The translations under genes were made by a program, and so were the position numbers. Of a DNA stretch of 64,000 bases, positions 56,803-61,812 are shown in pieces; the first letter of the stretch is position 1, and every line of letters begins with the position of its first letter. The DNA comes from Tetragenococcus halophilus subsp. halophilus DSM 20339 (lineage in GTDB: Bacteria; Bacillota; Bacilli; Lactobacillales; Enterococcaceae). A model generated the notes under the pieces. The model made no database searches, was not told where the DNA came from, and saw nothing but the letters and a program-made list of their open reading frames with translations. The stretch is taken from the NCBI RefSeq assembly GCF_003841405.1, contig NZ_PXYA01000003.1, positions 372,001-436,000 on the forward strand, written 5' to 3'.

Positions 56803-57849
56803 TTAAAGGCCTCCTTCGGTTTGTTTTAGCACGTTGACATATACGCCTTCATTGACTAAATACTCATAAGCTTTTTGTCTTTGTTCCAAAGTCCCTGATA
56901 GGGTCACAATTAAACTTCCTAAAGGGGTATCTTGAATAATTTCAACATTACCATACAAAATATTAGTAATGACTTGAAATTGGCTATATAACTCCGCAAT
57001 CAACGGTTCACTTGTTTGATCGCCTACATAAGAAAGTTCAACTAGCCATTCATTTTCTCCCAACTTCGAAAAACTAGTACTCCCAAGTATGGTATCCAAG
57101 GCTTGGTCAATATGCGTTGCTGTTCGAATAAAATCTTTAGTCAACGGTTGTTCTGGCTTACTAAAAATTTGAATACTTTCGCCATGTTCAATAATTTTTC
57201 CATCTTCCATAACCGCTACTTTATTGCAGATTTCTTTAACAACTTGCATTTCGTGGGTGATTATAACGATAGTTAGTCCTAATTGCTTATTTAATTTTTT
57301 TAGTAAATCTAAAATCTGTAAGGTAGTTTTGGGATCCAATGCACTAGTAGCTTCGTCACATAATAAAATTTCTGGATCATTTGCTAAAGATCTGGCAATT
57401 GCCACCCGTTGTTTTTGTCCTCCAGATAACTGGCTGGGGTAGGAATTGATTTCTGCTGACAGTCCCACTAAATCCAACAATTCATTTACTTTTTGACGAC
57501 GATCTTCTTTTGAAACACCAGCATATTTTAAAGAAAAAGCGACATTATCAAAAATAGAACGATGGTTCATTAAATTAAAATGTTGAAAAATCATCCCTAT
57601 TTTTTTACGTCTAGCTCGTAGTTCTTTTGGTTTTAACGTTGTATAATCCGTCCCATTCACTTCCACTGTGCCTTCTGTGGGCTGTTGCAATAAGTTGATC
57701 ACCCGGACCAAGGTACTTTTACCAGCGCCCGAATAACCAACAATGCCATATACATCTCCTTGATCCACTGAAAGATCAACATTTCTTACAGCAGGGATTT
57801 CTCGATTCCCTTGACGAAAAGTTACTGATATATCTTTTAATTCGATCAT
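56803..57849 (-). CDS. metN: Methionine ABC transporter ATPase
   Basis: A 348-residue ATPase. Walker A is GYSGAGKST (about residues 38-46), the signature is LSGGQKQRV, Walker B is [12 protein letters not shown], followed by the H-loop ITHEMQV. A C-terminal NIL (ACT-like) domain of about 90 residues (about 255-345) senses methionine in this family. GGAG lies about 10 nt before the ATG at 57849; an upstream ATG at 57870 is possible. First gene of the metNIQ operon, preceded by two T-boxes. Confidence 0.93.
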
Positions 57850-57894
57850 TTTTATCCTCTCCTCATTCATTGATGAAATTCATTTGTATTTTAT

Positions 57895-58492: not shown

Positions 58493-59332
58493 TTAATCTC
58501 TAAATTTTTCTTCCATTTCTTGCGTATGCCTCAAAAGATCTTTGAAAGTCTTTTGAATGATCTCTTCATATGCAGGGTTGGTCACAGCTTTTTGGACGTG
58601 TGACAATATCTTTTCATAACGTTCTGATGTAAAAAAATCTGTGTCATCATTCGTTTTTGTCTGTAAAATATTACTTACAGCTGCTATTCTTTTTTCTAAC
58701 AATTCAACAACTTGCCAATCTAAGTCGTCAATAATGTCTTGTTGCTGCTCTAATGGCGTCGCTTCTTCTGGATCTAGTTCAATTGTTTTGATAACTTTGG
58801 CTGGATTTCCAGCGATCACTACGTTATCAGGGTAAGATTTGGTTACCACGCTGCCTGCGCCCACAACAACATTATCACCTAGAGTAACCCCCGGTATTAT
58901 GACAGAGCCTCCACCGATCCACACATCATTTCCTATCGTAATGGGCTTTCCGTCTTCTAGACCACTTTTTCTTTTGATAGGATGCAGTGGATGGGAGGCT
59001 GTATATAGTTTAACATTAGGTGCTAACATGCAATTATCACCAATGGTAATAGGACAAATATCAAGTAACACGCAGTCGTAATTCGCATAAAAATTTTCGC
59101 CCACAGATATATTATAACCATAATCAAAACGAATTGTTTGCTCAACATGGAGGGAGTCACCAACACTACCGAATGTTTCTTTTACCCGTTGATTGCGGCG
59201 TTTGCTGTCATCTTCATGGTTAATTAAAATCTGCTTCTTTCTGGCTGCTTTCCTATCTGCAGCTAATTCTGGGTCAGCCGAAAAGTATAAATCTCCAGCG
59301 ATCATTTTCTCTTTTTCACTACGTTCAGGCAT
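58493..59332 (-). CDS. Maltose-type O-acetyltransferase fused to a chorismate-mutase-like domain
   Basis: A 279-residue protein. Residues 1-185 are a hexapeptide-repeat acetyltransferase of the Maa/LacA family ([14 protein letters not shown] start, [15 protein letters not shown], catalytic His in YTASHPLHP, end GNPAKVIK). Residues about 200-279 form three predicted helices resembling AroQ-type chorismate mutase: [20 protein letters not shown], then a conserved Lys, an ERYEKIL segment and a final HTQEM. The first active-site Arg seems absent (LEQQQ), so activity is doubtful. The frame is continuous. The gene is monocistronic, upstream of the metN promoter. Confidence 0.75.
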
Positions 59333-59525: not shown

Positions 59526-59825
59526 ATGTTAGCAGCTTTTATATATTGGGGTCTTATTTTGATTAATATTGCTTGGCTAGCCCTTAGTTTATACTTTTCT
59601 ATATTCTATCTTGTTCGTAAAGAAAATGGAAACTTATGGGTTTTTGGACTTTTGAATGTTCTTTCAGCAGTTGTGCTCTGGGTCACAATGTTAATTTATC
59701 ATACTTGGGGCTGGGGTATCACGCAATATTCAAGTCTCATTTATTTGATTTTAGGTCTTTTAATTGGATTAACAGTCATACAAGCTATTTTGGGACGTGA
59801 GCCAAAAAATCCAAAAACGGCATAA
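59526..59825 (+). CDS. Small membrane protein of unknown function (99 aa)
   Basis: A 99-residue protein with three hydrophobic segments (about 5-25, 37-57, 65-85) and a short basic tail (EPKNPKTA). An upstream frame exists from 59415, but GAGGTG 9 nt before the ATG at 59526 sets the start. I do not recognise a family. It lies in front of, but is separated by a promoter from, the lysine-riboswitch transport operon. Confidence 0.6.
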   Translation: MLAAFIYWGLILINIAWLALSLYFSIFYLVRKENGNLWVFGLLNVLSAVVLWVTMLIYHTWGWGITQYSSLIYLILGLLIGLTVIQAILGREPKNPKTA

Positions 59826-59914: not shown

Positions 59915-60105
59915 AAGTTACCTTTGAACAGGTAGAGGTCGCAAATTTCATTAACCCTATGGAGTGAAGCAACATGTAGAAATAGGTCTAGGGAAATTAG
60001 CCGAAACGGTTTTTCATTGCTTTGAATCATCGTTGGGGCGTAAGTAAACAGCTTGCGTACTGTCTTAGCACAAGCTAAGGTGCGCTATGTTTTGTGAGAA
60101 GTTTG
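59915..60105 (+). promoter_or_regulatory. Lysine riboswitch (L-box)
   Basis: The leader contains the L-box landmarks in order: AGGTAGAGGTCGC (59930-59942), ATTTCATTAACCC, AGGGAAATTAGCCGAAACG (about 59989-60008), TTTCATTGCTTTGAATCATCG with GGGGCG, and GCTTGCGTACTGTC near 60051-60064. This is the lysine-binding five-way junction of Rfam family RF00168. Lysine binding should favour the terminator just downstream, so lysine lowers expression of the transporter. Stem ends are approximate. Confidence 0.8.
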
Positions 60106-60117
60106 TTGACAAATTGT

Positions 60118-60156
60118 CCGCAGTCGTTTTCCAATCATGGAGTACGGCTGCTTTTT
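60118..60156 (+). terminator. Riboswitch terminator (expression platform)
   Basis: GCAGTCGT pairs with ACGGCTGC across about 15 nt, with an inner TCCA..TGGA pair, then TTTTTCTTT. Antiterminator sequence AAGTTTGTTGACAAATTG lies immediately upstream. Confidence 0.7.
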
Positions 60157-60213
60157 CTTTGCGTTGCTTGTATTTTCAAATATATTGCACAAAAAAAGAG
60201 GGGGAATGAAAGT

Positions 60214-61812
60214 ATGAGGAAAAATTATTGGCTATTATTAGTTTCTTTATTTATGGTGTTGTTTGCAGGTACAATTACTGCAGATGCAGATGAAAAAACG
60301 CCTGACGATCAATTTAGAGTAGGAATGGAAACATCCTATGCGCCTTTTAATTGGACGCAAACCAGCGATGAAAATGAAGCCGTGCCTAAAAGCGGTGATT
60401 CGAGTTCCTACGCAGGTGGTTATGATGTCCAAATGGCTAAAAAAATCGCTGAAGGAATGGATAAGGAATTAGTTGTTGTCCCGATCGAATGGGATGGTTT
60501 AGTTCCCGCTTTAAAATCTGGAAAAATTGATGGCATTGTCGCTGGTATGTCACCTACAAAAGAGCGACGGGAAGAAATTGACTTTACTGATCCATATTAT
60601 GAATCAGATTTGGTTACTGTAACTCGTAAAGATAGTGAATATGCCGACGCAAAATCACTCGATGATTTAAATGGTGCAAAAATCACTGCTCAACTAAATA
60701 CCTTTCATTACTCTGTTATTGATCAAATTCCCGGTGTAGACAAACAACAAGCACAAGATGATTTTTCTGCCATGCGTGTCGCTTTATCTTCAGGAATTAT
60801 TGACGGCTATGTGAGTGAACGCCCTGAAGGGATTACTGCAACCAATGTAAATGACGATTTGACCATGATCGATTTTGATGAAGGAGAAGGCTTTGAAACC
60901 GCGCCTGAAGATGTTCAGGTAGCTGTTGGTTTGCGTAAAGGTGATCCTGATGTGTCCACTGTAAACGACATTTTAAGTGGAATTTCTCAGGATGAGCGAA
61001 CCCAAATTATGGATCAGGCAGTAGAAAACCAACCTTCATCTTCAAGTGATAGTGATGATGAGGAGGAATCTAGTGGTGGATTGTTTGCGACATTTGGCGA
61101 TATTATTTCACAATACGGTACGCTTTTCTTAAAGGGTGCTGGTATGACACTGCTCATCGCGGTTTTCTCGACAATTGCCGGAACAATAATCGGCTTATTA
61201 ATAGGTGTTTTTCGGTCTTTACCTGATTCGGAAAGTCCTCTTTTAGCTGTATTGCAAAAAATTGCCAATGGTATTTTACGTATCTATATAGAGATCTTTC
61301 GTGGTACGCCTATGATGGTACAAGCAATGGTTATCTTTTATGGGGTCGCCCTACTATTTTCAATTGATATGAACCGAACAGTAGCGGCTTTATTGATCGT
61401 ATCTGTTAATACGGGGGCTTATATGTCTGAAATTGTACGTGGTGGGATTTTTGCAGTCGATGATGGACAATTCGAGGCCGCTCAAGCAATTGGCATGACC
61501 CATGGACAAACCATGCGCAAAGTTATTTTGCCACAAGCAATTCGAAATATTTTACCAGCAATCGGCAATGAATCCGTCATTAATATCAAAGATACAGCAG
61601 TACTAAGTGTTATTAGTGTAGGGGATCTTTTCTTCCAAGGTTCAGCTGCCGCTGGAACAAATTTACTGTTTTTCCAAACCTTTACCATCGTAGGCGCAAT
61701 TTATTTGGTTATGACCCTAGCAGCTACCGGGTTATTACGTCTTATGGAAAAGAAAATGGACAGTCCCAATTCCTATACAAAAGTAGAAGAAAGCACCACA
61801 GGTCACGAATAG
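60214..61812 (+). CDS. Amino-acid ABC transporter, binding protein fused to permease (probably lysine)
   Basis: A 532-residue fusion: signal peptide (1-26), a periplasmic-binding-type domain (about 30-275, [20 protein letters not shown] is the family motif), an acidic linker ([12 protein letters not shown]) and a permease domain (about 310-525) with [20 protein letters not shown] as ATPase contact. Such fusions are usually annotated as glutamine transporters. The lysine riboswitch upstream argues for lysine. The ATG at 60214 follows GGGGG; an upstream frame from 60094 lies inside the terminator. Confidence 0.85.

Follow-up and report, generated by a model that had tools for sequence, protein, structure and literature searches.

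The gene at positions 58493 to 59332 of the window, by which we mean the whole 64,000-nucleotide stretch of Tetragenococcus halophilus subsp. halophilus DSM 20339 that was analysed, raises the question of why a sugar O-acetyltransferase should continue, in the same reading frame, into a chorismate mutase (CM), and of what this second domain does. The reading that we favour, with a probability of about three in four, is that maa and a CM gene fused in frame in an ancestor of the Enterococcaceae, that the enterococcal product is bifunctional and the sole CM of the cell, and that in the Tetragenococcus halophilus group, where a separate CM took over, the domain was disarmed and kept as a fold-retaining tail. 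The features of the locus are the following.

58493..59332, reverse strand: fused gene, Maa-type O-acetyltransferase followed by an AroQ-type CM domain, 279 aa (ORF, Pfam)
58772..59332, reverse strand: acetyltransferase domain, residues 1-187, with Mac cap, hexapeptide repeats and His114 (Pfam, alignment, Foldseek)
58754..58771, reverse strand: linker, about residues 188-193 (AF2 model, motif spacing)
58496..58753, reverse strand: CM domain, residues 194-279, with helices 194-226, 236-249 and 253-278 (Pfam, AF2, Foldseek)
58511..58741, reverse strand: the eight AroQ active-site positions Q198, R215, K226, T235, R238, Y239, T270 and E274, three of eight kept
56803..57870, reverse strand: metN-like ABC ATPase adjoining the fused gene and opening a metN-metI-metQ-like set (named by eye)
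59526..59825, forward strand: divergent small membrane protein that recurs beside the gene in Tetragenococcus and many Enterococcus (locus comparison)
60094..61812, forward strand: amino-acid ABC transporter (binding protein and permease), a recurrent neighbour (named by eye)

The ORF starts with ATG, is uninterrupted and encodes 279 aa, in which Pfam places Mac (PF12464; residues 9-58, 50.7 bits), Hexapep (PF00132; residues 131-165, 50.3 bits) and CM_2 (PF01817; residues 201-274, 46.2 bits against a gathering cut-off of 27, E 5.3e-12). These matches bear out the first-pass annotation, which had described a Maa/LacA acetyltransferase running without a break into a CM domain and had suggested a profile search of the C-terminal extension. 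His114, which we take to be the catalytic His of the Maa/LacA family, is invariant in the 53 rows of the acetyltransferase alignment (53/53), and the N-terminal part matches maltose transacetylase 2p2o with a TM of 0.97 by target length (Foldseek); the maltose O-acetyltransferase equivalog NF007499 is not reached (247.6, cut-off 314). Using the same number of rows, 53, AlphaFold2 modelled the full-length protein at a mean pLDDT of 90.9 (two of the five models at 89.6 or above, the other three at 59.5-71.0), with a strand up to residue 183, a helix starting at 194 and, after the beta-helix, the three helices listed above. The GNPAxxxK motif and the CM helix lie 9-18 residues apart, with a median of 10, over the 67 proteins in which both motifs were found. 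Modelled by itself, the CM domain reached a pLDDT of 89.5, and its first 11 Foldseek matches in the PDB are all CM-domain chains (TMq 0.63-0.83; entries 5gmu, 3nvt, 5go2, 2d8e, 5j6f, 6al9, 2d8d and 1ybz, the last being titled conserved hypothetical protein in the Foldseek listing and chorismate mutase in another search), followed by unrelated helix bundles at TMq of 0.46 or less; E-values are weak for so small a helical domain, the best being 0.016. Profile match and predicted structure thus agree with the AroQ-like three-helix fold that had been proposed.

The CM part is present at 72 of the best 80 related loci, in Tetragenococcus and Enterococcus species, with a contig end truncating one of the 72; the eight without it belong to Tetragenococcus muriaticus (L044), three Trichococcus, Enterococcus sp. 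PF1-24 (L077) and three other Bacilli. CM_2 was found by profile search in 103 of 105 Enterococcaceae genomes, the two with no match being G100 and the incomplete G067. The CM lies in a frame of at least 269 aa, long enough for Maa, in 99 of the 105, such frames being taken as Maa fusions by direct check for the loci in hand, by a junction profile for 67 genomes and by length for the rest. Three genomes (G064, G093 and G094) have a separate CM only and one (G101) has a separate CM plus a Maa without CM. Among 385 Lactobacillales genomes, 68 pass the junction profile at 1e-42; 67 are Enterococcaceae, including one (G039) where a stop within the match is the gene's own end, and the remaining one (G283) has two separate genes. 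In 398 Bacilli genomes the junction is spanned only by five Enterococcaceae among the matches listed (down to about 1e-25), and in 279 Bacillota genomes the window's genome alone passes; this rarity outside the Enterococcaceae holds for the sampled genomes, beyond which distant fusions may be missed. The survey of occurrence that had been recommended therefore reveals a family-wide trait and not the oddity of one strain. An apparent reach of a Fictibacillus locus (L082) into the CM part was rejected as noise, the frame stopping at 187 aa. Among the matches listed from other Lactobacillales, CM_2 also occurs in long frames of 332, 403 and 507 aa (L098, L099 and L100), with no Maa nearby.

Outside Tetragenococcus, the long-frame CM is the sole full CM_2 in 91 of 96 Enterococcaceae genomes, extra CM_2 fragments being seen in G056 and G006. 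A second, divergent separate CM (RRKDRVFE) stands beside the long-frame CM in G057 (L090). No AroH-type CM (CM_1) was found in any of the 105 Enterococcaceae genomes, in which chorismate synthase was detected in 102, prephenate dehydratase (PheA) in 95 and TyrA, over cut-off, in 94. The columns invariant in the alignment of 21 intact fused domains include R5, R22, K33, D42, R45, E46, S77 and Q81, which we take to correspond to R11, R28, K39, D48, R51, E52, S84 and Q88 in E. coli CM. The complete octet occurs in 67 of the 75 distinct fused domains; two others, from E. nangangensis and E. timonensis, carry Asn in place of D48, and the remaining six, all from Tetragenococcus, have a degenerate active site. 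The five intact fused domains tested all pass TIGR01805, the equivalog of Gram-positive monofunctional AroQ (84.4-97.9; cut-off 71.2). As far as sequence can tell, most of the enterococci examined thus have the pathway and, as its only CM found, the fusion; since this domain is the sole CM detected, no AroH was found and the octet is intact in 67 of 75, it is most likely the housekeeping CM, and in most enterococci examined most likely a working enzyme.

Six of the Tetragenococcus copies are different. In the window, Arg215, Lys226 and Arg238 are kept, and the missing first active-site Arg, already remarked in the first-pass annotation, is a Gln (Gln198) accompanied by four further changes (Thr235, Tyr239, Thr270 and Glu274). 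The octets of the six degenerate copies read QRKTRYTE (window), QRNARYTK, QRKTRYME, QRKARQVQ, QRKADEIQ and QRKDRYVQ, so that the loss of the first Arg is common to all six and the Arg215 position is the only one of the eight that is identical throughout; the Lys is lost in L003 and the Arg at the position of Arg238 in L061. The TIGR01805 cut-off is failed by the window (55.3), L003 (51.9), L061 (31.4) and, narrowly, L005 (71.1). Retention in the window is 8 of 10 for structure-bearing and 21 of 22 for hydrophobic positions, against 3 of 8 for catalytic ones, a contrast that is absent from T. solitarius, where core positions are also lost and 16 of 22 hydrophobic positions are kept; no individual sequence shows a significant difference between loss in the active site and loss at other conserved positions (Fisher 0.054-1.0). 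T. pullicola (G102) has all eight residues, in a fused CM that is the only one found in its genome.

The window's genome also encodes a separate CM (G000:C1:218007-218240, 81.6 bits), and the six Tetragenococcus genomes in which a fused and a separate CM occur together are exactly the six with the degenerate fused domain. The separate Tetragenococcus CM passes TIGR01805 (84.8). The separate CMs have the octet RRKDRETQ and are 89-100% identical between the six genomes, as against 42-91% for the fused domains; the S-to-T change that they carry is also present in three genomes of family f2 and one of family f6. Those of seven Tetragenococcus form one clade (SH-aLRT 99) away from the fused CMs, in a tree of few columns and weak forks. 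The separate enzyme very likely performs the prephenate chemistry in the window's organism; either order of its arrival and the first active-site losses fits the data. The tyrA gene of the same genome lacks an open N-terminal part (L138, G000:C1:453500-459500, 1407-1634; profile match 41-153 with one in-frame stop, the first ORF beginning at 1634), so that tyrosine synthesis may be broken in this organism. T. muriaticus L044 (G429, apparently the same genome as G100) has no CM_2 at all, possibly through a draft gap; PheA, TyrA and chorismate synthase are present in G100, yet no CM was found.

A probable history of the fusion can be read from its neighbours. Most enterococcal loci have the order sir2 - [maa::CM] - niaR; the Sir2-like and NiaR-like genes are both absent from the T. 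halophilus locus. In genomes of family f8, sir2 adjoins a separate CM (L107, L108, L111 and L117), with niaR found behind the CM in L111, and three f2 genomes (L104-L106) have maa, a VOC-like gene and CM in succession. The middle gene in L104-L106, named by eye as VOC/glyoxalase-like, is tightly packed between maa and the separate CM. In G283 (f8, outside the Enterococcaceae; L141) the separate genes sir2, maa, CM and niaR follow each other; maa and CM share a reading frame, and the 15 nt between the maa stop and the likely GTG start codon of CM contain another in-frame stop and the sequence AGGAG. Removal of these stops would give a fused protein of the enterococcal type, and the arrangement, in an assembly that is fragmented, 89% complete and possibly contaminated, is likely to represent the state that preceded fusion. 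Either half may be lost: in G064, whose two sampled congeners carry long-frame CMs, the locus has lost the Maa part, leaving a lone CM and an apparent linker remnant, and only distant Maa relatives (37-40%) were found elsewhere; in G093 and G094 the CM occupies the maa::CM locus and Maa is a separate gene in another place; in T. muriaticus and G101 the locus retains Maa but has no recognisable CM. The CMs of G064, G093 and G094 fall among the fused rows of the tree with modest support (87-88).

On the reading that we prefer, maa would have entered an ancient cluster of sir2, chorismate mutase and niaR, coming to lie immediately ahead of the CM gene and in its reading frame, and would have fused with it in the ancestor of the Enterococcaceae. 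In enterococci, the N-terminal hexapeptide part would transfer acetyl groups from acetyl-CoA to a sugar or a similar acceptor, and the AroQ part at the C-terminus, as the cell's only CM, would provide prephenate for PheA and TyrA. No chemical link between the activities would be required, transcription, stoichiometry and assembly being shared; shared expression and assembly is the simplest benefit of fusion, and the loss of each half without the other in some genomes makes a strict coupling of the activities unlikely. In the T. halophilus group, a separate CM would have taken over prephenate synthesis and the fused domain would have lost its active site but not its fold, probably serving the acetyltransferase as a tail for packing or oligomer formation. 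The suggestion of a regulatory or oligomerisation module made in the first-pass annotation is plausible for this Tetragenococcus copy, which has lost catalytic residues, mostly kept its core and stayed under selection, but misleading for the family, as most enterococci keep the full active site in the sole CM found.

It is possible, though rather unlikely, that the domain of the window is instead a plain vestige, free of constraint once the separate CM was present and on its way out. Such a decay would explain the active-site loss in all six genomes holding both CMs and the absence of the domain from G101 and T. muriaticus, and it agrees with the relative rates: compared with T. pullicola over 42 Enterococcus references, the CM of five Tetragenococcus has accumulated +0.37 to +0.91 substitutions per site (positive in 39-42 of 42), against +0.01 to +0.05 for Maa (positive in 23-33 of 42). 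However, among three T. halophilus genomes, that of the window included, dN/dS of the CM domain is 0.20, 0.14 and 0.13 (bootstrap upper limits 0.34-0.52; Maa of the same genomes 0.08, 0.06 and 0.06), the excess of silent changes is significant (Fisher p 8.3e-4, 1.2e-5 and 1.7e-5), and the near-complete hydrophobic core also speaks against free decay. Enterococcus CM pairs give about 0.03-0.29 where dN/dS is estimable, one identical pair being 0 and two saturating. Moreover, the ratio of CM to Maa distances has a median of 2.73 among Tetragenococcus (10 pairs), close to the 2.50 of Enterococcus (861 pairs). As the loss of the first Arg is common to all six degenerate copies, purifying constraint most likely acted after that loss, and the low ratios fit a retained scaffold better than free decay. 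From distances, rather than from a codon model, we infer a burst on the Tetragenococcus stem followed by renewed constraint. Such ratios fall short of demonstrating a new role, since selection against misfolding might yield the same values and the domain has been dropped by two relatives, G101 and T. muriaticus.

A bolder account, which we consider doubtful, makes the Tetragenococcus domain a pseudoenzyme with a new constrained job, for example AroQ dimers tying trimers together, and gives the enterococcal fused CM a service beyond Phe and Tyr. Maa forms trimers. The AroQ domain of E. coli is an intertwined dimer according to the part of the article consulted (PMC10520331), and the fusion could build larger assemblies. 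The second element stems from lineages that keep a full active site without PheA and TyrA: neither enzyme is over cut-off in eight genomes (G022, G024, G030, G031, G032, G034, G068 and G096), and seven of them have the full octet (G022, G024, G030, G031, G032, G034 and G096; L128-L133 and L097), the eighth, E. timonensis, having D48N. In three of the eight (G022, G032 and G034; domains of L024, L031 and L025), dN/dS of the CM is 0.18-0.19 in two pairs. Were prephenate for Phe and Tyr the sole role, decay of the CM would be expected in such genomes, and this counts against the explanation that we prefer. Prephenate is acid-labile; the intact CM may reflect a recent loss of PheA and TyrA, another use of prephenate or its non-enzymatic conversion.

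That the degenerate domain binds chorismate, prephenate or another dicarboxylate through Arg215, Lys226 and Arg238 and so regulates the acetyltransferase appears improbable. DAHP synthase is regulated by CM-like domains in some members of the Bacillota, and such a domain from the B. subtilis enzyme (5gmu), which we take to be regulatory, has the fold nearest to that of the window domain; the window retains all three cationic positions. Against such a ligand site, L003 has no Lys and L061 no Arg at the position of Arg238, only the Arg215 position is constant in the six degenerate copies, and there is no metabolic ground for tying sugar acetylation to chorismate. It is more improbable still that the fused domain remains an active CM in the window strain with an altered active site: PF01817 is above cut-off and purifying selection persists, but five of the eight residues invariant in the 21 intact domains are replaced, the TIGR01805 cut-off is failed and an intact separate CM is present in the genome. 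A generic helical tail or a join created by a sequencing or assembly artefact can be ruled out for practical purposes, no supporting point having been found for either, since the same join occurs at 72 of the best 80 loci, 67 Enterococcaceae genomes match across the junction and CM chains take the top 11 Foldseek places, ahead of the unrelated bundles.

The preferred history, if true, places the only CM of most enterococci inside a gene that resembles a sugar acetyltransferase, with a bearing on annotation, metabolic models and screens. The likely stages of the fusion would be alive today: separate gene, in-frame neighbour, fusion, loss of either half and silencing beside a second enzyme. Why unrelated enzymes stay fused is thereby a directly testable question. 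No description of a maa::CM fusion was found among the papers listed from the open-access literature, judged mostly by titles and abstract openings.

When compared with known systems, the N-terminal half resembles the Maa/LacA family (PF12464 with PF00132) in its cap, hexapeptide helix, conserved His114 and fold (2p2o and 3srt), and differs in the attached CM domain and in a score below the maltose O-acetyltransferase equivalog cut-off. The C-terminal half resembles Gram-positive monofunctional AroQ-alpha CM (PF01817, TIGR01805) in its three-helix fold, profile match and the octet intact in 67 of 75 fused domains; here, by contrast, it is appended to the C-terminus of an acetyltransferase, and the window copy keeps three of eight residues and fails TIGR01805. 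AroQ domains joined to a second enzyme are known from PheA (CM-PDT), TyrA (CM-PDH) and the exported CM-CDT, as given in the part of PMC10520331 consulted, and DAHP synthase-CM fusions from the PDB titles 3nvt and 5j6f; the partners in all of these act in aromatic biosynthesis, whereas Maa lies outside it. In the AroF-TyrA fusion of Pseudomonas syringae, going by the part of PMC1173090 consulted, one catalytic half is disrupted and truncated and the other kept. The window gene would resemble it in discarding one half of a fusion and retaining the other, and would differ in that its lost half still has its full length, a predicted fold and the mark of purifying selection. The maa::CM gene is a real, family-wide gene fusion that adds to those in which AroQ domains are known to take part, and the window copy is most likely a disarmed descendant.
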